DNA of 64,000 nucleotides from a bacterium (GTDB lineage Bacteria; Campylobacterota; Campylobacteria; Campylobacterales; Sulfurimonadaceae), in the NCBI GenBank assembly GCA_018824305.1, contig JAHJGM010000002.1, positions 1-64,000 of the forward strand, given 5' to 3'. This document shows positions 18,876-57,735 of the stretch, piece by piece. Made by a program: the position numbers and the translations under genes. The notes beneath the pieces are model-generated. The model did no database searches. It was given only the letters and a program-made list of their open reading frames with translations, and was not told where the DNA came from. The stretch's first letter is position 1, and each line of letters opens with the position of its first letter.

Positions 18876-21365
18876 TTATACCCCTTGTATTGTAGCTAGA
18901 GTGAAGCGGTAACCGCTAAACAAGCTTTGTGAATTTAGATTTGAATCAAAAGTCGGAAGAGTAGCGATCTCTCCCTCTATTTTGTTGTCACTGATGATCT
19001 TAGCAGTCACTTCACCGGATCCAGTTTTAACTTTAACCATGTCTCCCTCGTTAAAATCACTTGATTCTAAGAAAGATGCACTCATATAGACACCCGCTTC
19101 CTCTTTGAGGTTCGTTGCTTTATTTGTAAACTCGCTAAACTGACGAACAGGATTTGCCAGATAGATAATGCTTCCTTCGAGTTTTGCTTCACTCAATGGT
19201 GCGACATCTTCATCCGAAAATGTTTTGACATCCATGCTATCTAATACATACCCTCTAACTTCCGTACCGTCATTCTCATAACGATTTGGCAGGTTATCAA
19301 ACAGTTGTGCTTTGAATCCCTTACATGTAGGAAGTTTTTGCGTGTAATCCACTGTGAATTTACTCGCAAGACCAAGCGCTTTTGCAATATCGTTTAATAC
19401 ATACCCTTTATAAGGAAGAGCTGCATTTGTAGGATTGACACGTTTGTCTATACTTGTCAATGTCCCCTCTTGCTGATTCATTGCCGGCATATCAAGATCG
19501 CCGTTTCCAAGAGCAGAAAGCGTGAAATCGCCTTTCGTGTTGTACCCTATCGTATAGCTTCCCTTAGCATCATCAAGTTCACAGATAAGTGAGACACCTA
19601 GAGTATTTGAAAGTGAAGGGATCATAACCAGTTTAAAGGCACTGTATTTTTCTACCAGTGCAACCAATCTTGCTAAGTTCTTCGCATTTGGATGCGTGTA
19701 AAGATCAGGTCCGACGATTAAAGAGAAGTTCTCTTTCTTCGCCAATAGTTTTTCCAGACTCTCAGTGAAGTTCGCAGGAGCGCCTACTATCTCTAAAAGA
19801 CGGTTCTCATCGACTTGAACCTCTTTAGATATCTTTTTAGAGACCATAGTAGATTTTTCTTCCTCTACCTCTTCCTCTTCGCCCGTCTCTTCATTTACTT
19901 TTGTAACTTTCACGATCTCTACGACTTTCTCTTTGACAGTCTCTTCGACAGTAATAGTTTTCTCAGAGTGGAATGATGCGATGTATTCTGCAACTGACGC
20001 AGGCAGTTTTGATTTTTCTGCAAACAGGTCAAGCAATAGATATAAAACAGCTTCCTCTTGTAATGGAGCATGATTGATGCTCACAACATTTTTACTGATA
20101 CCCTCGATAACAGGATCTTTCAGAGGATGAAAATATAATCCCGCACCTTTGTTCATACTAATCGAGTTGTTAAACGCATATCTTGCATTCGGATTGTCGG
20201 ATTTAAGCGCAGTTCCCATAGAAACTATAAAATCTGCACCGTGAGCTTCATGCAGATCACTTCCGTAAAGAGATTTACCGCTGATCTCGCTATAGTTGTT
20301 TAAAAACGTCTGGAAAGCTTTCGCTTCACTGTTGACAAGTTTATATCCGAACTTCTCTTTGAGTGATTGAAAAATAAATGCTTCTTCATTTGTGATAGTC
20401 GAAGTGAACTCTATAGTGTCCGCTTTTTTGAACGCTTCTAGTGCGTAAGCAAACGCTGTTTCATCTTTAGCTTTTACTTCATTTTGATAATCAAATCCGT
20501 AACGTCCCGCACCGCAAAGAGATACATAGTTCCATTCGTTCATAACACGGTATATCTTATCATCAGAGTTTTCGATATCTGTATGCTTGACGTCATAGCT
20601 TATCTGACATCCGGCACTACAGTGTCCACATGTAGCAGGGATCTGACGAAGTTCCCAAGCATTTGATTCATACATAAAATGAGTATCTACAAGCGCTCCG
20701 ACAGGACAAACAGCTGCACACTCTCCGCAAGAGGTACAATCAAGCATCTCTTCTCCGCTTGTCAGACCGATAATAGATTTATTGAGCTTGTTCCACATCG
20801 CATATGCGTCTTTTGGCATGCTTTCTTTAAACTCTGCATCGATCGCATCACCACCGCGTGCCACCGTTTTAAGCGAGTTGTCACCGATCATATCTTTACA
20901 AACGGTCACACATCTTTCACAAACGATACAAAGACCCGGATCATAATGGATATGTCCCCAGTCTTTTGATTCGCGCGCTACATCTTTGATCGCATAGCTT
21001 TGAGAATCCACACCCATCTCTAAAGTATAGTTTTGAAGCTCACACTCCCCTGATTGATCACAAACCCCGCATTGCAACGGATGGTTTACATCATAGACTT
21101 CCATTATCGCGCGGCGCTCTGCAACGATGTTTTCAGTCGATGTAGTGATGTTCATACCCTCTTTTGCTTTAGCATTACAAGCATATACCTGTTTGCCATC
21201 AGCCTCGACAAGACAGATACGACATGCAAGTGTCGGGCTACAACGTGTCAGATAACATATTGCGGGAATAAATATGTCATTTGCACGGGCAGCATTTAAT
21301 ATAAATTCCCCTTCGGTCGTTTGTACTTGACGACCATCTATATTAATAGTAATATTACTCATCAT
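18876..21365 (-). CDS. nuoG: NADH-quinone oxidoreductase subunit G, longer copy
   Basis: An 829-aa iron-sulfur subunit. From the N-terminus: a 2Fe-2S domain (CYLTRCSPTLACRICLVEADG, N1b), the His-ligated N5 motif HPLQCGVCDQSGECELQ, two further 4Fe-4S motifs (CIVCERCVTVC and CTSCGECAAVCPVGAL), and CGHCSAGC, where the molybdopterin-like domain begins. The C-terminal half belongs to the molybdopterin oxidoreductase fold but is not expected to bind the cofactor. Around residues 465-515 there is a strongly charged Lys/Glu/Val insertion (several EEE and KEK runs) absent from the second copy. Its ATG overlaps the end of that copy by 11 bases. Confidence 0.9.
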   Translation of the reverse strand: MMSNITINIDGRQVQTTEGEFILNAARANDIFIPAICYLTRCSPTLACRICLVEADGKQVYACNAKAKEGMNITTSTENIVAERRAIMEVYDVNHPLQCGVCDQSGECELQNYTLEMGVDSQSYAIKDVARESKDWGHIHYDPGLCIVCERCVTVCKDMIGDNSLKTVARGGDAIDAEFKESMPKDAYAMWNKLNKSIIGLTSGEEMLDCTSCGECAAVCPVGALVDTHFMYESNAWELRQIPATCGHCSAGCQISYDVKHTDIENSDDKIYRVMNEWNYVSLCGAGRYGFDYQNEVKAKDETAFAYALEAFKKADTIEFTSTITNEEAFIFQSLKEKFGYKLVNSEAKAFQTFLNNYSEISGKSLYGSDLHEAHGADFIVSMGTALKSDNPNARYAFNNSISMNKGAGLYFHPLKDPVIEGISKNVVSINHAPLQEEAVLYLLLDLFAEKSKLPASVAEYIASFHSEKTITVEETVKEKVVEIVKVTKVNEETGEEEEVEEEKSTMVSKKISKEVQVDENRLLEIVGAPANFTESLEKLLAKKENFSLIVGPDLYTHPNAKNLARLVALVEKYSAFKLVMIPSLSNTLGVSLICELDDAKGSYTIGYNTKGDFTLSALGNGDLDMPAMNQQEGTLTSIDKRVNPTNAALPYKGYVLNDIAKALGLASKFTVDYTQKLPTCKGFKAQLFDNLPNRYENDGTEVRGYVLDSMDVKTFSDEDVAPLSEAKLEGSIIYLANPVRQFSEFTNKATNLKEEAGVYMSASFLESSDFNEGDMVKVKTGSGEVTAKIISDNKIEGEIATLPTFDSNLNSQSLFSGYRFTLATIQGV

Positions 21366-23607
21366 TCACTCTCATAATTTTAGATTTTTGAAATCTGTAA
21401 GTTCCTGTACCTTCATCAAAATCAAATGTCGGATTTAGTGCTATCGTTCCTTTTAAAGATTCCTCTTGTTTGAAGGTACGAACAACACTTTTTCCCTCAT
21501 AACTGATCTCGACTTTATCTCCGTCACTCACTCTTGCTGCAGCTGCAAATTGTGCGGAGCCTCTTAAAGTCTTATCACGTTCAAGCTGTTTTGTCAGGTT
21601 TGTGTATGCATTAAACTGTAACACAGGATTTACATTATAGATAATCGTTCCGTTAAATTCCGGAAGATCTTCCACATCGCTTAATACACCGTCCATCTCA
21701 ACTTCGATCTCATCTAAAATATATCCTCTGATATCATCCCCAGCAGGTGATAAGAAGTTTTCAAGATTATCGAAATCAACAGCTTTAAACCCACTTGCAA
21801 CTGGCAACTCTTTAGTCAGATCGATTGTAAGTGCTTTACCGACACCAAACTCTTTTGCAATATCGTTTAGCTCATAACCCTCAAAACCTAATGCAGCATT
21901 CGTCGGGACTACGCGATTATCGATAGTCACGAATGTCCCCTCTTGCTGATTAAGTGAAGCGATCGCTAAATCTGCTCTTGGCAGACTTGATATGACAAAA
22001 TTACCTGCAGCATTATACCCAACAACATCACTTTGAGAGTCATCTTCATCAAGACTACATGTAAGACTTACACCGAGTGTATTTACATCACGGGGTACTA
22101 TAAGAATCGAAAAATCACTGTATTTCTCGATCATAGCTGCAAGTTTTGCTATATTTTTTGCCTCTTTATGAGCCATAATATCATTTCCGATAATTAAAAC
22201 TCTGTTTTTTGTTCGGCTAAGAGACTTCATCATAAACTCAAGTTCATCTTCACCGATGTTGCTCTCAGCACTCAAATACCCGTCATCCAAATTCTCAAAG
22301 TATTTTCTTTCCTCGTCGCTTAGATCAGCATCACGAAGAAGATATTTTGCTAAAAGTGCGACAACGCCCTCCTCGGTTCCTACTTCATATTTTAAGAACT
22401 GAGTGACCGTATTTTGCATCAATGGATCTTCTACAGGATGCGCATAGATGATCTTTGCACCGTTATGTTTTGCCGCTGTCGTCATCGCATATCTTACAAC
22501 AGGATTGTCTGTCGCTATCATCGAGCCGATGATGATAACTGCATCTGATTTTCTTACAGCTTCGAGTGTCGCACTGTGGTGTTTTTTGCCACTGACACTT
22601 GCATAAGAGGTCATAAATTCAGCGAATCTTCTTGCATCTTCATTAAAAAGCTTTATCCCAAGTTTCTCTTTTAGCCTTTGAAGCAGAAGAGCCTCTTCAT
22701 TTGTTATCATCGAACTAAATCTGATCGCTTTTGCATTTTTCAACGCTTCGACAGCCTTATGAAATGCTGTTTCATCTTTTGACGCTTTGTTCTCAAAGTC
22801 AAATCCAAATCTTCCGGCCCCGCACAGTGAACTGAATTCGAAGTTGTTTTTCACTCTATAGATCGACTTTTCTTTTGATGCGATACCTGTATGTCTTGTC
22901 TCATACTCTAACGGACATCCCGCAGAACAATGGACACATGTTGCAGGCACGCGAGAAAGTTCCCAAGCGTTTGCAGTGTACTTAAAGTCAGAACTTACAA
23001 GCGCACCTACAGGACAAACTGCTATACACTCCCCACAGAACGTACAATCTAAAGTATCAGAGTTTTTAGGAACAACTTTTGATTTATATCCGCCAAACTG
23101 AAGGTCGATCGCATCATCGCCTATCACTTCATTACATACATGTACACATTTTTCACACAAGATACAAAGAGAAGGATCATAATTGATCAGCCCCCAATTT
23201 TCTATTTTACGGTGCTGATCACGTGCCGTGAAGTTCTGTTTTGCGACACCAAATTCTAAAGTCTTGTTTTGCAGATCACATTCGCCCGACTTGTCACAGA
23301 CACCACACTCTAACGGATGATTTACATCATAGAGTTTCATAATATTCGTACGCTCTTGCTGTAGTGCGTCGGTAGCCGTCGTAATCTCAATACCTTCTGT
23401 CGGAGGAGTGTTACATGAGAGTACAAATCCCTCAACACCTTTAGCCTCGACAAGACACATACGACAAGATGCACAAGGTGTAGTCTTAGAGATATAACAC
23501 ATGGTAGGAATATAGATTCCCTCTCGACGTGCCACTGTCAAGATAGTTTCACCTTTTTTTGCTGTTACATCTTTGCCGTTAATTGTAAAGTTAATCAAAT
23601 TTTTCAT
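21355..23607 (-). CDS. Second NuoG-like subunit
   Basis: A 750-aa paralogue of the following gene with the same order of clusters: 2Fe-2S (CYISKTTPCASCRMCLVEA), HPLECGVCDKSGECDLQ, CILCEKCVHVC, CTFCGECIAVCPVGAL and CVHCSAGCPLEY. All Cys and the His ligand are intact, so it should be functional. It lacks the charged insertion of the first copy and diverges throughout, so it is an old duplication. Two NuoG-type proteins in one operon suggest that both are in the complex or that they alternate with different electron donors; the sequence cannot decide. GGAG lies before the ATG. Confidence 0.88.
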   Translation of the reverse strand: MKNLINFTINGKDVTAKKGETILTVARREGIYIPTMCYISKTTPCASCRMCLVEAKGVEGFVLSCNTPPTEGIEITTATDALQQERTNIMKLYDVNHPLECGVCDKSGECDLQNKTLEFGVAKQNFTARDQHRKIENWGLINYDPSLCILCEKCVHVCNEVIGDDAIDLQFGGYKSKVVPKNSDTLDCTFCGECIAVCPVGALVSSDFKYTANAWELSRVPATCVHCSAGCPLEYETRHTGIASKEKSIYRVKNNFEFSSLCGAGRFGFDFENKASKDETAFHKAVEALKNAKAIRFSSMITNEEALLLQRLKEKLGIKLFNEDARRFAEFMTSYASVSGKKHHSATLEAVRKSDAVIIIGSMIATDNPVVRYAMTTAAKHNGAKIIYAHPVEDPLMQNTVTQFLKYEVGTEEGVVALLAKYLLRDADLSDEERKYFENLDDGYLSAESNIGEDELEFMMKSLSRTKNRVLIIGNDIMAHKEAKNIAKLAAMIEKYSDFSILIVPRDVNTLGVSLTCSLDEDDSQSDVVGYNAAGNFVISSLPRADLAIASLNQQEGTFVTIDNRVVPTNAALGFEGYELNDIAKEFGVGKALTIDLTKELPVASGFKAVDFDNLENFLSPAGDDIRGYILDEIEVEMDGVLSDVEDLPEFNGTIIYNVNPVLQFNAYTNLTKQLERDKTLRGSAQFAAAARVSDGDKVEISYEGKSVVRTFKQEESLKGTIALNPTFDFDEGTGTYRFQKSKIMRVNDE

Positions 23608-45151: not shown

Positions 45152-45694
45152 ATGAATATATCATTAGTAGGGCGTCATGTAGACTTAACTGACCCGATAA
45201 AAACGCATCTCAACAATTCCATCGAGACACTTAAAAAATTTCATCTTGATATCATCTCCGTGAGTGCAGTCGCATCTGCAAACGAAAGAAAAGGAAAAAC
45301 CGGAGTAAGCATAGAATTTACGATCAATCTAGCAGGAAAAAATTCAGTTGTTATAAAACAAAACGATACAGATCTTTATGCAGCCATAGATATAGCGATA
45401 GAGCGCGCTCAAAAAGCACTACGCCGTATGCATGACCGTGAAGTCGATCATCATAAAGTTGGACTCAACGAAGTTAAAGCGCAATCAAACGGAGGCATCG
45501 ATCTTAGTCAAGAGAGTGAAAACCTTGAAGATGAGATAGTCCCGGTCGGGTTAGAACTCTACAAACCTCGTGAAGTAGGTGATGTTTTAGAAGAACTTAA
45601 AGACAGCGGAAAGATGTTTGAGATATTTTTAGACCATGAAGACAAGACTCGCGTACTTTACAAAAGAAACGACGGACGTTTCGGACTTTATTAG
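45152..45694 (+). CDS. hpf: Ribosome hibernation promoting factor, long form
   Basis: A 180-aa protein that binds the 30S decoding region and lets 70S ribosomes pair in stationary phase. The N-terminal domain (1-100) has SLVGRHVDLTDPIKTHL and DLYAAIDIAIERAQKALRRMHDR; the C-terminal domain (about 125-180), found only in long forms, has VGLELYKPREVGDVLEELKDSGKMFEIFLDHE and mediates dimerisation. It has its own promoter. A shorter paralogue begins at the right edge of the window. Confidence 0.93.
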   Translation: MNISLVGRHVDLTDPIKTHLNNSIETLKKFHLDIISVSAVASANERKGKTGVSIEFTINLAGKNSVVIKQNDTDLYAAIDIAIERAQKALRRMHDREVDHHKVGLNEVKAQSNGGIDLSQESENLEDEIVPVGLELYKPREVGDVLEELKDSGKMFEIFLDHEDKTRVLYKRNDGRFGLY

Positions 45695-51730: not shown

Positions 51731-52618
51731 TCATTTCGCCTTAGCGACTAAAACCCCTGCCGTTATGATCAATACTATTCCCGTCGTTGTAATAATCCCA
51801 GGCAGTGAATCTCCCAAAAAAAGACCGACCAAAATGGAAAATGGGATGTTTGTGTAGCTTACCGCACCGATGATACCCGCCTTGCTTGCACCGTACGCTT
51901 TTGTCATATAGACTTGTGCCAAAGTCGCTAAAAGACCCATGGCAAGCACATACAGCCATACGACTCCGCTAGGCATGACAAATCTGCCAAGCATAAAATC
52001 AAGCTCAGGCATATCGACATAAGGGGAGATAAAAAACAGCAGTAACGGTCCGATGGTTCCGACCCCCATAAAAGAGAGTACGATCGCACGGGTATCATAA
52101 TATTTTTTAAGCTCACGCACGGAAGTGTATGCAAGTGCTGCACCCACACCGCTGAAGATTCCTAAAACATCATATTTACTAAAGCCAAGTCCGCTTGGTT
52201 CAGTGATAAAGATGATCCCTACAAAGCCTATAAAAACTGCCATCCAACCTTTTATGGGAAGCTTCTCGTGTAAAAAAAACCAAGCAAAAAGTGCCGTAAA
52301 GATAGGTGACGTCTTTGAAAATGTCATCGCATCGCCAAGAGAGATATGTGCAATATTGTAAAAAAAAGCAAGCAGTGCGACAAATCCCATCAAACCCCTG
52401 AAAAACAGAAGAAACGGTTTGCCGCCCACATGCTTCATCGGAGATTTCAACACCGCAAAACCGATAATAAGCACACCAAAGACATTTCTGAAAAACACAA
52501 CTTCAAGCGAACTCATGTGCTGACTTGAGAGTTTGGCAAATGCGCCCATAATGGCAAATACGAAAGATGCAAGAAGCATATACTTCACACCTTCATCGAT
52601 TTTAATATCTAATTTCAT
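51731..52618 (-). CDS. DMT-family (EamA) transporter
   Basis: A 295-aa inner-membrane protein with ten hydrophobic helices and two EamA repeats, each ending in a small-residue-rich helix (FIGFVGIIFITEPSG; GIVLIITAGVLVAKAK). Family members export metabolites; the substrate cannot be read from the sequence. A TTG two codons earlier exists, but the ATG at 52618 has a TATAAT box only seven bases ahead and no ribosome binding site, suggesting a leaderless transcript. Confidence 0.85.
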   Translation of the reverse strand: MKLDIKIDEGVKYMLLASFVFAIMGAFAKLSSQHMSSLEVVFFRNVFGVLIIGFAVLKSPMKHVGGKPFLLFFRGLMGFVALLAFFYNIAHISLGDAMTFSKTSPIFTALFAWFFLHEKLPIKGWMAVFIGFVGIIFITEPSGLGFSKYDVLGIFSGVGAALAYTSVRELKKYYDTRAIVLSFMGVGTIGPLLLFFISPYVDMPELDFMLGRFVMPSGVVWLYVLAMGLLATLAQVYMTKAYGASKAGIIGAVSYTNIPFSILVGLFLGDSLPGIITTTGIVLIITAGVLVAKAK

Positions 52619-52625
52619 GGGCAAA

Positions 52626-52631
52626 ATTATA
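52626..52631 (-). promoter_or_regulatory. -10 box of the DMT transporter, leaderless
   Basis: A perfect TATAAT on the minus strand, separated by seven bases from the ATG at 52618. No Shine-Dalgarno-like bases intervene. Confidence 0.5.
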
Positions 52632-52652
52632 TCGGTGTTAGCTTGATTTACG

Positions 52653-52658
52653 TATAAT
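52653..52658 (+). promoter_or_regulatory. -10 box of the TerB-DnaJ gene
   Basis: A perfect TATAAT 33 bases before the TTG start, followed at once by TTTACATGTAAG and then the AAGGAG site. Confidence 0.45.
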
Positions 52659-52690
52659 TTTACATGTAAGAAAAGATAAGGAGAGTTTAA

Positions 52691-53443
52691 TTGAGTACTA
52701 TTTTATTGATAATATTAGTCATAGGTGTCTTTTTATATCTGTCTAAAGGATATAAAACCTATACCGTAAATTATGAGGAACAGTTTAAGAACCTTTCGGT
52801 ATCCAAAGACGCGATTGAGCGTAGTGAACTAGGTGTCTTTGTGTCACTCGCTGCTAAAGTGGCAAAGGCTGATGGCAAAGTAGATGCCCTTGAAGCTGAG
52901 CTTATTGGCAATATGTTCACAGACGTTTCACGTGTTTTCCCTGAACCTGAAAAAACAAGAGAGATATTAAAACAAATATTTGATGAACAAAAAGATATCA
53001 CGAATAATATTGAATCTTTGGCACAGATACTCCAAAAACTGATCGTCAGAGATAAAAACAAACAGATCCAGATGATGGGCTTTTTGATCCAGCTTGCTTT
53101 TGTCGACGGCAAAGTCAGCAAAGCAGAGGAACACATACTTATAACAATCGCAGAATCTTTGCAGATAGACCCTGACATCTATCATAAAATCTTTGACCAG
53201 TTTGAGTCTATGATCAAAAACACACATCCTCAGGCAAGTATTGACGATGCATATAAACTGCTTGGAGTAAATCCAAATGATTCACTTGAAACGGTTAAAA
53301 AAGCGTATAGAAAACTCGTGCGTGAATATCATCCCGACATCATCAAAGCACAAGGCAAAGATGAAAACTATCTAAAAGAAGCAACGGAAAAAACGCAAGA
53401 GATCAACTCTGCCTATGAGATGATAAAGAACGCTCGTTCTTAG
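52691..53443 (+). CDS. Membrane-anchored TerB/DnaJ-domain protein (DjlA-like)
   Basis: A 250-aa protein. One N-terminal membrane helix (residues 3-17), then two TerB-like acidic repeats (KADGKVDALEAELI and FVDGKVSKAEEHIL), then a C-terminal J domain (about 180-250) with the HPD triad in VREYHPDIIK. The layout is that of DjlA, a co-chaperone that stimulates DnaK at the membrane. The start is TTG, seven bases after AAGGAG; no ATG fits. Single gene, divergent from the DMT transporter. Confidence 0.87.
   Translation: MSTILLIILVIGVFLYLSKGYKTYTVNYEEQFKNLSVSKDAIERSELGVFVSLAAKVAKADGKVDALEAELIGNMFTDVSRVFPEPEKTREILKQIFDEQKDITNNIESLAQILQKLIVRDKNKQIQMMGFLIQLAFVDGKVSKAEEHILITIAESLQIDPDIYHKIFDQFESMIKNTHPQASIDDAYKLLGVNPNDSLETVKKAYRKLVREYHPDIIKAQGKDENYLKEATEKTQEINSAYEMIKNARS
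53426..53441. terminator. Hairpin at the end of the TerB-DnaJ gene
   Basis: AAGAAC-GCTC-GTTCTT, overlapping the last codons, with a second small palindrome GTTCTTAGAAC running into the 8-base gap to the convergent lipoprotein gene. It may end both transcripts; there is no T run. Confidence 0.35.
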
Positions 53444-53451
53444 AACCTTCT

Positions 53452-54468
53452 TTATCTAAATAGCTGATCCAGTAACAGACCCACACCCTGTTTAATAACC
53501 TCGTCTTGAACTTTATCGATTACTTGATTTTGTTGGCCGTTCTGATTTGCCGTGTTTTGGTATATGACAGTTGGTTGGTTGCCCGCCACCTTTTTCTGTT
53601 CAGCCAAATAGAACTCTTGCTGTTTTCTGAGTTTTTCATCACGCATCAGATTCGTCGTCTCATCTATCAGTGCTGCTATTACTTTTTCAGGGAGTCCCAT
53701 ACTTATAAGCATGTCGATCTCCTCTAAAGAGAACTTTTTATACGGGACCTCTTGCTGCTTTATCATAGAAAGCAGGATCAGCTCACTTTTGCCATTTTTG
53801 AGGTACTCTCGTATATCCCCTATTTTCAGCCCTTTTGGACCTGTCATAGCCAGTCTGATCCATTCATCTGTGATGTAATACACTGCATTGGGATTTTTGT
53901 CTGTGTACTCTTTTAACCCGTTCAGGTCTTTATCGGCAAGATATTTATCTACTGCCGTCTTGAGTGCATCCTGTGCCTCTTGTTTTTGTTGGACTTGTAG
54001 TTGTAGCTGTTTTTTTGACTGCATGAGCTTTAATCTATTCATTGCAGATTTAAGTTTTACGACACATGAATCGACTTGATTTGTGACACAAAACTCATTC
54101 CAATGGTTTAAACCGACCATCGTATTATCAAAACTTGCGCCCTTGTCAAACAGGTACTGAGCGACATCATCTTTTCCCTCAGAAAGAGCATTTCCAAGCG
54201 GTGTCCAGCCCATATCCGCTTTTGCATCTATGTTTGCACCGTGTTCTACAAGGAACTTCACGCTTTGCATCTGTCCGGCTCCAGCCGCCCAAATAAGAGG
54301 TGTCCCATAGTACCACTCATCGACATTGCCACCGGCATCCACCAAACTCTCTAAACTCTTCACATCACCGGTATAAGCAGCCTCATGTATAGGAGGCGTC
54401 GTCATCTCGGCACAACCAGAAAATATAAACATCAAAACCGTAAAAAGAAGATATGTAACTTTTTTCAT
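53452..54468 (-). CDS. Ankyrin-repeat lipoprotein
   Basis: A 338-aa protein with lipobox (FSGC, Cys19). Residues 28-125 are ankyrin repeats (GTPLIWAAGAGQMQSVKFLVEHGANIDA; GWTPLGNALSEGKDDVAQYLFDKGA, each shown as core only). The rest, from about 180, is nearly the same as the C-terminal half of the lipoprotein at 55.3 kb: DKNPNAVYYI, RLAMTGPKGLKIGDIREYL, SMGLPEKVIAALIDETT and the end VIDKVQDEVIKQGVGLLLDQLFR-like tail. A Lys/Gln-rich linker joins the two parts. Likely periplasmic or at the inner face of the outer membrane. Function unknown. Confidence 0.78.
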   Translation of the reverse strand: MKKVTYLLFTVLMFIFSGCAEMTTPPIHEAAYTGDVKSLESLVDAGGNVDEWYYGTPLIWAAGAGQMQSVKFLVEHGANIDAKADMGWTPLGNALSEGKDDVAQYLFDKGASFDNTMVGLNHWNEFCVTNQVDSCVVKLKSAMNRLKLMQSKKQLQLQVQQKQEAQDALKTAVDKYLADKDLNGLKEYTDKNPNAVYYITDEWIRLAMTGPKGLKIGDIREYLKNGKSELILLSMIKQQEVPYKKFSLEEIDMLISMGLPEKVIAALIDETTNLMRDEKLRKQQEFYLAEQKKVAGNQPTVIYQNTANQNGQQNQVIDKVQDEVIKQGVGLLLDQLFR

Positions 54469-54500
54469 TTGACCTCATTTGCTATTTAAAATCTCTGTCC
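54431..54500. repeat. Duplicated segment, copy A (partner 56654-56722)
   Basis: About 70 bases covering the first codons of the ankyrin lipoprotein gene and the sequence before it match 56654-56722 at most positions by eye. In both places a short stretch (CTATTTAAAATCTCTGTCC) belongs to, or derives from, the end of the phosphoribosyltransferase gene. Confidence 0.75.
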
Positions 54501-54786
54501 AAAAAAAATATAAATATACAGGGTGTTTCACAACCGTTATAAACGCGATAAAAGCCACTCTTTATATAATAAAATTCTATAAAATCCATTCTATCCAATC
54601 TTTACTTATTTTACAAAACAGGAGATAAATTATCTAGAATAATTCCTAGCAACAGAACTTTCCATACCATTCAACGGTATATCTATAATCTTCATTTCGC
54701 TATAATAACGGATGCAAAACTTTAATTATTCTCACGTGAACCATCACTCTACGACCATAAACACTTTAAGTGATTCTATACTTTAG
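54469..54786. other. 318-base gap with duplicated fragments and candidate promoters
   Basis: No gene of usual size. From left: 54478-54500 matches the 3' end of the phosphoribosyltransferase gene at 56.7 kb; 54562-54626 is similar to 56528-56592 upstream of the other lipoprotein; TATAAT at 54701-54706 and TATACT at 54777-54782 may be -10 boxes for the metallopeptidase gene. A 24-codon frame (54712-54786) ends right before that gene's ATG, in the same frame; I doubt that it is translated. Confidence 0.6.
54562..54626. repeat. Duplicated upstream segment (partner 56528-56592)
   Basis: A 65-base stretch with ATTCTATAAAAT and TCTTTACTTATTTT cores is repeated at 56528-56592 with few changes. Each copy lies upstream of one of the two lipoprotein genes with a common C-terminal half. 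Confidence 0.75.
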
Positions 54787-55296
54787 ATGCAGAACAGAAA
54801 ACTCAAATATCTTAGTCACTACAATGAACAAACACAGCAGAGTGTGTATAAGCTCATAGAGCATAACAAGCTTGAAACTTATCTTTTAGGCAAGTACAAA
54901 ACTTCTCATGCCATAAAGAGCGACAAACAGCTCTACGGATACGCCCAAGAACTCAAAAATGAGTTTATGAAAAAGACGGCCCCGCTTACAAAAGTAAACT
55001 ATGACCCAAATGTAAACAGCGTTCATAATGCGTTAGGCACACATTACTTCATCTCCCGCGTACAAGGCGGCAAGCTCAAAACGAAAAATGAGATAAAAAT
55101 CGCATCGATATTCAAGAACGCACCACAAGAGTTTTTACGGATGATATTGGTCCATGAACTCGCTCATTTTAAAGAAAAAGAGCACAATAAAGCTTTTTAT
55201 AGTCTATGTACCAACATGGAGCCCGACTATCATCAATTTGAATTTGATCTTAGAATATATTTAACTCATTTAGATACCGGCTCTAAACTTTGGTAG
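54787..55296 (+). CDS. YgjP-like / M48-type metallopeptidase
   Basis: A 169-aa cytoplasmic protein with the zinc-peptidase motif HELAHFKEKEH (about 117-127), where HExxH is followed by a third His as in YgjP/WLM-type enzymes, and PDYHQFEFDLRIYL near the end. Length is that of the short Campylobacterota form, which begins at LKYLxxY as here. No signal peptide. No ribosome binding site precedes the ATG, and a TATACT box lies four bases ahead. It is inserted between the two related lipoprotein genes, on the other strand. A decayed piece of this gene lies at 56601-56655. Confidence 0.8.
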   Translation: MQNRKLKYLSHYNEQTQQSVYKLIEHNKLETYLLGKYKTSHAIKSDKQLYGYAQELKNEFMKKTAPLTKVNYDPNVNSVHNALGTHYFISRVQGGKLKTKNEIKIASIFKNAPQEFLRMILVHELAHFKEKEHNKAFYSLCTNMEPDYHQFEFDLRIYLTHLDTGSKLW

Positions 55297-55311
55297 CTAT
55301 TTCTCTTTCTA

Positions 55312-56514
55312 TCAACGAAAAAGCTGATCCAGCAACATCCCGACACCCTGTTTGATCACTTCGTCTTGGACTTTATCGACGACCTGATTTGATTGTTGTT
55401 GTACGCCTTGATTTGAAGTATTTTGATATATGACTTTAGGTTGTTTAGTAGCTGCTATCTTCTTCTCTTCAGCTAAGTAAAACTCTTGCTGTTTTCTGAG
55501 TTTTTCATCATTCATAAGCTTTGTGGTGACATCTATCATCGCTACTATCACTTTATCGCTCAATCCCATCTCTGTGAGCATATCAATCTCTGACAAAGAA
55601 AATCTTTTATACGGAACATCTTGTTGTTTGATCATAGAAAGCAAGATAGGCTCACTCTTGCCTTTTTTCAGATACTCTCTTATATCTCCTACTTTGAGTC
55701 CTTTTGGACCTGTCATTGCTAGTCTAATCCAATCATCTTTGATATAATAAACCGCATTTGGATTTTTATCTGTGTACTCTTTTAATCCGTTTAAGTCTTT
55801 AGCGGCTATAAATTTATCTACGTCTTTTTGCAGTTTATCTTCTTGTATTTGTTGATTTTGATTAGGTTTCGCAGCTATACTGTAAGTAGTTGGATATAAG
55901 TTGGCATCCGCAAGTGTATCGGCAATAGCTACTGAAATTTTATCATTAAACGATGAAAAAGCTAGACTTAAGTCTAACCCTATACTGTCCGCTTCATGTG
56001 GCAGCGTAATAGGAGATGCTATGCCCAGTGTAAATACCGTACCTACTACTGTCATACCTACTAAGCCCATAGGAAGTTCATATCTAAAACTTGCATTTAC
56101 ATCTTTTCTAAAAATTTCATTATCTTTATTATCATATGCGATTATGTTATTAGTAGATGTAAAATTATCATATGCGGACTTTTTAGTATAGTTTTTAAGT
56201 ACAAACTTATAATCGTAATTATCGATTTTTTGATCTGCTTCGAGCAGATATACCTTTTGAAAATTATTTTCTAATTGGTTTTTGATAGAGAGGATCAGGG
56301 CATTTCCAAAATCGATAGTCACATCTGATACATCATATTTTCCGCGTATCGATAGATCTTTTAATCTACTCGCATCCACAGCTACCGTATAAGGAAGTTT
56401 TACATTGGAATGTGTAGCCAAAGCTAAATTTGGTGTTACTGCCGTCCTATTTGAACAACCAGCAAAAAAAGTCAATGACAATAAGAGCGCAAAGTGAAAA
56501 ATATTTTTTTTCAA
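55312..56514 (-). CDS. Lipoprotein sharing its C-terminal half with the ankyrin lipoprotein
   Basis: A 400-aa protein with lipobox (FAGC, Cys20). The N-terminal half (25-215) is unlike the ankyrin protein: beta-rich, with a hydrophobic segment MGLVGMTVVGTVFTLGIAS (about 150-168) that may insert in a membrane. From about 235 to the end it matches the other lipoprotein closely. The start appears to be TTG followed by eight A; no in-frame ATG exists, though an ATG at 56527 would come into frame if one A were lost. Function unknown. Confidence 0.75.
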   Translation of the reverse strand: MKKNIFHFALLLSLTFFAGCSNRTAVTPNLALATHSNVKLPYTVAVDASRLKDLSIRGKYDVSDVTIDFGNALILSIKNQLENNFQKVYLLEADQKIDNYDYKFVLKNYTKKSAYDNFTSTNNIIAYDNKDNEIFRKDVNASFRYELPMGLVGMTVVGTVFTLGIASPITLPHEADSIGLDLSLAFSSFNDKISVAIADTLADANLYPTTYSIAAKPNQNQQIQEDKLQKDVDKFIAAKDLNGLKEYTDKNPNAVYYIKDDWIRLAMTGPKGLKVGDIREYLKKGKSEPILLSMIKQQDVPYKRFSLSEIDMLTEMGLSDKVIVAMIDVTTKLMNDEKLRKQQEFYLAEEKKIAATKQPKVIYQNTSNQGVQQQSNQVVDKVQDEVIKQGVGMLLDQLFR

Positions 56515-56527
56515 TAAAAACCACCAT

Positions 56528-56592
56528 TTATATACTAAAATTCTATAAAATTCATTCTATCTGATCTTTACTTATTTTGCAAAACAAAAGAT
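56528..56592. repeat. Duplicated upstream segment (partner 54562-54626)
   Basis: Second copy of the 65-base segment upstream of the lipoprotein genes; see the partner for the shared cores. Confidence 0.75.
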
Positions 56593-56600
56593 CCACGTCA

Positions 56601-56655
56601 TTCACAATGCTTTGTACACACGGAAAACTCAAAGCAAAAAATGAAATCAAAATAT
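56601..56655 (+). pseudogene. Remnant of an internal part of the YgjP-like gene
   Basis: TTCACAATGCTTTGTACACAC and GGAAAACTCAAAGC (joined) match two parts of the metallopeptidase gene at 55022-55042 and 55069-55100 with the 26 bases between them missing. It has no start and no open frame of use. Confidence 0.6.
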
Positions 56656-56722
56656 CAAAACCGTAAGAAAAAGATATATAGTTTTTTCATTTGATTTCTT
56701 TTACTATTTAAAATCTCTGTCC
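56654..56722 (-). pseudogene. Remnant of the 5' end of the ankyrin lipoprotein gene
   Basis: Counterpart of 54431-54500. On the minus strand it begins after the phosphoribosyltransferase stop with ATGAAAAAA (start at 56690) and runs into a TGA after eleven codons; the real gene has the same opening. Only about 37 coding bases survive. The right part overlaps the intact end of the phosphoribosyltransferase gene. Confidence 0.6.
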
Positions 56723-57144
56723 CAGAAAAAGTCTATCCAATCAAGTGCTTCATTGACGGTAAAATCGGGTTGATGAATAGAAGTTTTTTTATAAAAAAGT
56801 GTAGCAGTTTTAAACTCGGCATGAGGATTATCACCTTGAAGGTGTTTCATAATTGCATCGAGAGTATCACCGCTATCGGCAATATCATCTACGATCAAGA
56901 CACGTTTATGACTTAAAAGGTCACACTCTCCGTAGATACAGATGTTATCTCTTTTTTGATCGTTATCGTAAAGCTCAGTGCGAATGGACTCCACCGCTCT
57001 TATACCAAGCCCCTCAGCCATCGCATGGGCAAGCGTCAAGCCGCCTCGTGCAACAGCGACTATGACCTCAGGGTCAAAACTTCTTACCTCATCGATAAGT
57101 TTGCGCGCATCGTTTTTAAAATTTTCGTAGCTATAATAAATCAT
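56704..57144 (-). CDS. Purine phosphoribosyltransferase (Gpt-like)
   Basis: A 146-aa type I phosphoribosyltransferase. The PRPP loop is VLIVDDIADSGDTL (about 82-95), with VAVARGGLTLAHAMAEGLG as the N-terminal PPi loop region. The tail WIDFFWDRD is like xanthine-guanine enzymes, which place a Trp-containing end on the purine; the exact base is not certain. The ATG has no ribosome binding site and lies six bases after a TGATATAAT promoter that overlaps the doxX-type stop. Confidence 0.85.
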   Translation of the reverse strand: MIYYSYENFKNDARKLIDEVRSFDPEVIVAVARGGLTLAHAMAEGLGIRAVESIRTELYDNDQKRDNICIYGECDLLSHKRVLIVDDIADSGDTLDAIMKHLQGDNPHAEFKTATLFYKKTSIHQPDFTVNEALDWIDFFWDRDFK

Positions 57145-57150
57145 AGCAGC

Positions 57151-57159
57151 ATTATATCA
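57151..57159 (-). promoter_or_regulatory. Extended -10 promoter overlapping a stop codon, leaderless
   Basis: TGATATAAT on the minus strand. Its TGA is the stop codon of the DoxX-family gene, and its last base is six bases before the ATG of the phosphoribosyltransferase. Confidence 0.55.
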
Positions 57160-57597
57160 ATCTTTTTTAGCAAATATATAGTTGTCAAGACTAAAGCGTC
57201 CTGCTCCGTGTGATAAAAAGATCAATAAAAACAACATGTAGTATACCGGTATCTCAAAGCCGTTGTTGCCGCAGTCAAAGCCGTTATGTATATGTACGGT
57301 AAAAATGGCGACTATCATTACGACTATCAAAGGAATCGAGATCAAACGTGTAAAAAGTCCCAGTGTCAGCAACACTACACCGGTAATTTCCGTAGTTGCT
57401 GCCATGTAGGCATTGAGAAGAGGAAAAGGCATTCCCAAGGATGCAAACCAATCCCCGATAGCATTGATATCGCTCCATTTTCTCATAGCAGGCCCGTAAA
57501 AACCATAGGCTAAGACCAATCTGGCAAGAAGCAGTGACAATGACTGTAAATATTCACTCAAATTTGAAAATTTAATATAGCACTCTTTTATCTTCAT
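57157..57597 (-). CDS. DoxX family membrane protein
   Basis: A 146-aa protein with four membrane helices; LARLVLAYGFYGPAMRKW, GVVLLTLGLFTRLISIPLIVVM and a GFEIPVYYMLFLLIFLSHGAG end are DoxX features. DoxX-like proteins (for example the small thiosulfate:quinone oxidoreductase partner, or MauE/DoxX of redox stress) have varied roles, and none can be chosen here. The frame opens to 57669, but AAGGAG stands right before the ATG at 57597. A TGCTATGAT box 22 bases further up could be its promoter. Confidence 0.82.
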   Translation of the reverse strand: MKIKECYIKFSNLSEYLQSLSLLLARLVLAYGFYGPAMRKWSDINAIGDWFASLGMPFPLLNAYMAATTEITGVVLLTLGLFTRLISIPLIVVMIVAIFTVHIHNGFDCGNNGFEIPVYYMLFLLIFLSHGAGRFSLDNYIFAKKD

Positions 57598-57735
57598 AAC
57601 AAACTCCTTTTTACGGACATCATAGCACATAATGTTATAAGTATATATAATGTAACAGCAGTAAGTCAAAAAATTATTTTGCTTGCTTTCAATATTTTAT
57701 AGATAGAATTTTACAAAAGCCCTCAAGGAACAGAT

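Follow-up and report, generated by a model that had tools for sequence, protein, structure and literature searches.

Repeated and decayed lipoprotein and metallopeptidase genes in a lineage-specific insert of a Campylobacterota genome

Two lipoprotein genes (lipoA and lipoB) with closely similar C-terminal halves lie near each other in the genome studied here, and the gaps around them hold short fragments resembling pieces of their neighbors. How did such a locus arise? An earlier note had suggested that a block composed of a phosphoribosyltransferase (PRT) end, a lipoprotein start and a metallopeptidase gene was duplicated, after which one set decayed and one lipoprotein obtained a new N-terminal half. 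The window, that is, the whole 64-kb stretch of DNA analysed, represents contig C41 of a genome (G000) in 71 contigs. Its 52.6–57.5 kb region was compared with itself, with the eight genus genomes (G000 among them), and with a wider set of genomes of the order.

Structure of the locus

Read from left to right, the insert consists of lipoA, repeat H (a lipoprotein start and a PRT stub), repeat D2, the metallopeptidase gene M, lipoB, D2', M' and H' (a broken lipoprotein start and the PRT end) (Table 1). Its three intact genes are the two lipoproteins and the YgjP-like metallopeptidase, and no transposase or integrase gene was recognized inside it from open-reading frames and Pfam. On the left flank, the match of the djlA-like gene to the NCBIfam DjlA model falls below the model cut-off. 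A DoxX-family gene at 57157-57669 of the window scores above the cut-off of the NCBIfam HvfX model (copper-binding RiPP maturation).

Table 1. Positions of the genes, gene remnants and repeats at the locus
Feature	Position	Strand	Basis
djlA-like co-chaperone gene (TerB + DnaJ), left flank of insert	52691-53443	+	Pfam TerB/DnaJ
lipoA, ankyrin-repeat lipoprotein, unit 1	53452-54468	-	ORF; Pfam Ank_2 E 2e-14; domain profile matches residues 160-337
Shared C-terminal coding stretch, lipoA copy	53458-53952	-	78% nt to 55318-55821
Repeat H copy 1: lipoA first codons, 13-nt spacer, last 27 nt of PRT copy (54482-54508)	54421-54508	-	84% to 56644-56730
Repeat D2 copy 1, promoter-like block, leftward TTGTAA-17-TAGAAT	54548-54626	.	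87% to 56514-56592
M, intact YgjP-like metallopeptidase gene, unit 2	54787-55296	+	Pfam YgjP-like E 4e-11; HELAH...H in translation
lipoB: shared C-terminal domain at residues 219-399, N-terminal half an orphan, unit 2	55312-56514	-	Profile match 219-399
Shared C-terminal coding stretch, lipoB copy	55318-55821	-	Self-BLASTN
Repeat D2 copy 2 (D2'), directly upstream of lipoB, leftward TTGCAA-17-TAGAAT	56514-56592	.	Self-BLASTN; promoter-like match
M', remnant of a second metallopeptidase gene, unit 3: codons 79-85 and 95-105 of M, stretch between lost	56600-56654	+	
Repeat H copy 2 (H'): frame-broken lipoprotein gene start (11 residues, then stop), 13-nt spacer, end of working PRT gene, unit 3	56644-56730	-	
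PRT gene, right flank of insert	56704-57144	-	Pfam Pribosyltran E 1e-19

All of the fragment pairs listed in the earlier note were found by self-BLASTN of 52600-57500, the kind of self-comparison proposed there; they are significantly similar (E-value = 2e-117 to 0.002), their limits are slightly wider than had been given, and the coordinates were right to within about 15 bases. The shared C-terminal coding stretches are 78% identical over 504 columns (E = 2e-117), the two D2 copies 87% over 79 (E = 5e-23), the two H copies 84% over 88 (E = 2e-21), and the metallopeptidase piece (55068-55100 versus 56621-56653) 82% over 33 (E = 0.002). These pairs rank first, third, fourth and 12th, respectively, of the 27 off-diagonal DNA matches with E ≤ 10 in the 64-kb window; the last (E = 0.28 window-wide) is at noise level as DNA alone. 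As protein, the assignment of this fragment to the metallopeptidase gene is clear: in two frames it reads IHNALYT and GKLKAKNEIKI, against VHNALGT and GKLKTKNEIKI in M, its best-frame score was reached by none of 5000 mononucleotide shuffles of the fragment, and, when the peptidase was searched against the window by tblastn, the top match of 4966 non-self ones (E = 0.037) included it. Judged from its translation, M' is a real metallopeptidase fragment.

The PRT stub in the first H copy is identical in its last 18 nt to the end of the G000 PRT gene, stop codon TAG included. The approximately 12 nt at 56644-56655 are compatible with both M' and a lipoprotein start, and we read them as a short-homology junction, as expected of short-homology deletion. 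A leftward promoter-like pair is present in both D2 copies and could account for their retention, although such patterns are about as common in shuffled sequence. Reading 54509-54547 as further PRT sequence is not significant (581 of 5000 shuffles score as high in an anchored test), nor is homology of 54627-54786 to the right side. Within the eight genus genomes, D2 and the N-terminal half of lipoB have no second home; their matches outside the locus are short and weak, and those below 1e-5 in one such search represent the PRT end.

Other paired genes occur on the same contig. Two adjacent long genes on the minus strand (18876-21365 and 21355-23607 of the window) match each other (69% identical DNA over 405 columns, with additional matching pieces), and presumably resemble paired NuoG-type subunits. 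The products of 45152-45694 and of a gene immediately beyond the right edge of the window (L031 3881-4249, on one 68-kb contig) are 44% identical over 108 residues, and both are presumably ribosome-hibernation-factor-like.

Distribution of the insert and of the metallopeptidase among relatives

The 3.3 kb of 53444-56703 is a lineage-specific insert at the place where djlA and PRT converge. In five of the seven congeners (G001, G002, G003, G006 and G007) the djlA-like gene meets PRT directly in convergent orientation, with a 4-bp overlap or a gap of 6-17 bp, and in G004 and G005, where the PRT neighbor is another gene (metH-like), there is again no insert. The lipoprotein and the metallopeptidase are missing at the PRT site in all seven, which indicates that insertion next to PRT came first. 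The comparison with sister species suggested in the earlier note thus gave a site empty of any insert in each congener, and the single-copy insert that it looked for was not found. Lipoproteins with the shared domain occur elsewhere in the genus: G006 has one adjoining a uvrB-like gene, and G003 has them at two further sites.

M itself agrees in every respect compared with a YgjP-like metallopeptidase: it matches PF01863 at 43.9 bits (cut-off, 26), and its translation contains HELAH (HExxH). The place of the gene varies between species of the genus. It adjoins a methyltransferase-like gene in G001, G002 and G007 and lies between mogA- and xthA-like genes in G006, so that among the five genus species in which it was found the peptidase gene occupies three different places. 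No match was found in G003 and G004, and G005 gave a weak one (24% identity, E = 2e-4). The methyltransferase-like site is without a metallopeptidase in G000 and G006, and the mogA-xthA-like site of G000 holds other genes instead of M. That gap (L065 1200-7326, on contig C8 of G000) is filled there by other genes over about 6 kb, and in G003 by a different gene; it is a variable site. The names mogA, xthA, uvrB, metH and methyltransferase are putative and were given from the translations.

The lipoproteins and their shared domain

The proteins encoded by lipoA and lipoB have a C-terminal half of 165 codons in common, with 82% amino-acid identity, as the earlier note had seen. The contrast that it drew between their N-terminal halves also holds: Ank_2 is recognized in lipoA with 54.4 bits (cut-off, 27.3), whereas lipoB has no Pfam match at E ≤ 1 and hence no ankyrin match. 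FSGC (lipobox-like, in lipoA) and FAGC were read by eye after the hydrophobic starts. Both proteins would be exported and lipid-anchored, sharing a helical domain at the C-terminus but differing in the binding part that each would have at its N-terminus.

The shared domain is patchily distributed, being present in nine of 398 genomes of the order (E ≤ 0.001), one of which (G267) has a short, weak match. A search of wider genome contigs with the domain alignment gave seven loci in metagenome-assembled genomes (MAGs) labelled Sulfurimonas, Sulfuricurvum, Arcobacter or Arcobacteraceae, and Helicobacteraceae; whole lipoB as the query gave nothing in the same contigs. Ankyrin repeats exceed a Pfam cut-off in 12 of the 15 distinct domain members scanned (the G267 match excluded). 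Thus lipoA resembles the majority of these Campylobacterota ankyrin-repeat lipoproteins, whereas lipoB, one G003 member (249 aa) and one member of the Sulfurimonas MAG STA_8 (238 aa) are without an ankyrin match. Pfam did not recognize the domain in any of the 15 members, nor did NCBIfam in the two proteins of the window; no match was found for the lipoA domain on plasmids or for the domain alignment in viral contigs, and PHROGs gave nothing useful.

The N-terminal half of lipoB (55867-56514) appears to be without a convincing relative: besides itself, the 398 genomes of the order contain three weak, interrupted matches. AlphaFold predicts the C-terminal part of lipoB to be helical (10-residue blocks of 221-330 with mean pLDDT of 71-88) but gives no usable model of its N-terminal half; that half alone, in a single-sequence prediction, has a mean pLDDT of 31. 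We assign no fold to the shared domain because it has no significant Foldseek match (E ≤ 0.001) and its best VIA-align Z is 2.9. Searches of PDB sequences gave weak, unconvincing rows for the domain profile (E = 0.008 and 0.047) and one row at E = 0.16 for the lipoB N-terminal half; these were set aside.

A second pair of lipoprotein genes at a single locus is present in STA_8 (L075 9503-10534 and 12033-12749). Their N-termini are unlike each other, and their C-terminal coding part is 90% identical at the DNA level over 548 columns. Between the two lie a thioredoxin gene and an unassigned gene. With lipoA/lipoB and the STA_8 pair as supporting cases, the shared domain might act as a homology anchor, in which recombination repeatedly swaps or removes the N-terminal binding halves of adjacent copies; we regard this as an unlikely, speculative idea, which, if true, would give Campylobacterota a cassette-like route to re-target a lipoprotein. 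A limited literature search by title found nothing on such loci, and the domain may still be in print.

Age of the copies

The nearest relative used as the yardstick for divergence was G006. In the C-terminal codons of lipoA and lipoB, third positions are 58% identical, compared with 52-60% in five G000/G006 orthologues, and identical fourfold sites number 16/42, compared with 18/41, 21/48, 28/72, 56/133 and 50/118 in those orthologues. The D2 copies are 87% identical, versus 88-92% of the aligned positions in four G000/G006 intergenic stretches (one of them aligned over part only). In both coding and promoter-block sequence, the copies have diverged about as far as G000 has from this relative, and by this measure they are not recent. 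Since the fourfold sites are near saturation, lipoA and lipoB could be older paralogues that were brought together and not products of this duplication; the support for their grouping in the tree (66/77) falls short of significance.

M' differs from M at four of 36 first and second positions and at nine of 18 third positions; the nine third-position differences among 13 give a binomial p of 0.009 under an even spread. Because of this third-position bias and the G000/G006 level of divergence, both copies probably worked long before one was broken. The evidence for late decay is moderate, because 18 codons of M' are left and a milder neutral expectation (15-20% mismatch) also fits the four differences in 36, which are not unusual under it (P = 0.35 and 0.13).

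Origin of the locus

Tandem gene duplication followed by pseudogenization and deletion is a known process, and the locus shares with it direct repeats, partial gene fragments on the same strand, and one intact and one broken metallopeptidase gene. It differs in that the order of its parts needs more than one duplication step and that the copies diverged to the genus-species level before decay. D2-M and D2'-M' agree in strand and order, and H and H' agree in strand, but H lies to the left of D2-M, whereas H' lies to the right of D2'-M'. A single duplication is thus insufficient, and the arrangement requires either another duplication or a third partial copy. Of the explanation given in the earlier note, the local duplication, the decay of one set and the different N-terminal half of one lipoprotein are supported; a single copying of the PRT end - lipoprotein start - metallopeptidase block does not give the observed order, the block is no old resident (the site lacks both genes in all seven congeners), and its decay looks late.

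The best fit, in our view somewhat probable, is a set of units (promoter block - metallopeptidase - lipoprotein - PRT end) arrayed in tandem, in at least three partial copies; its order is a deduction, as no genome with a single unit or a full array was found among the relatives compared. A unit of D2, metallopeptidase and lipoprotein would have entered the djlA-PRT junction, placing the lipoprotein start 13 nt downstream of PRT, and would then have been repeated in tandem along with the PRT end. Selection may have maintained both kinds of gene for a period similar to that separating G000 and its nearest relative, before redundant parts were lost. Unit 1 would have kept the ankyrin lipoprotein and the 27-nt PRT stub, and unit 2 D2, the metallopeptidase and a lipoprotein with an exchanged N-terminal half (lipoB). 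Unit 3 would have shrunk to D2', the two M' pieces and the broken lipoprotein start, joined at the approximately 12 nt of common sequence, with the real PRT gene retained.

Fewer full units are needed if one tandem block duplication was followed by decay of one set, and a later insertion or conversion brought the N-terminal half of lipoB together with D2' and M'; every repeated element is indeed present exactly twice. We nevertheless hold this to be rather doubtful, as H is placed differently with respect to D2 and M in the two copies, and D2'-M' must come from another copying event. Alternatively, G000 may have duplicated nothing and taken up a homologous, already diverged insert from a sister species, with recombination at the end of PRT. 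The divergence between the copies equals that between species of the genus, and M' has I and A, as in G006, at residues that are V and T in the M of G000; however, the PRT stub beside lipoA carries the G000 ending, the five congeners compared end differently, and a donor was not found, so that such uptake seems unlikely. It is very improbable that the fragments are chance matches of AT-rich stretches beside two independently acquired paralogous lipoproteins: the DNA match of M' taken alone would allow it, but the shuffle test of its protein does not, and for D2 and H chance was rejected on their self-BLASTN significance and window-wide ranks.

In short, on the tandem-array reading the locus is a real, clear and well-preserved but fairly ordinary case of insertion, tandem multiplication and decay. 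In it one can still read how a block of genes comes into a convergent junction, is multiplied, diverges and decays, and the surviving pieces suffice to place these steps in sequence. The locus also draws attention to a lipoprotein domain that has no Pfam match and is patchily distributed in Campylobacterota, both with and without ankyrin repeats.
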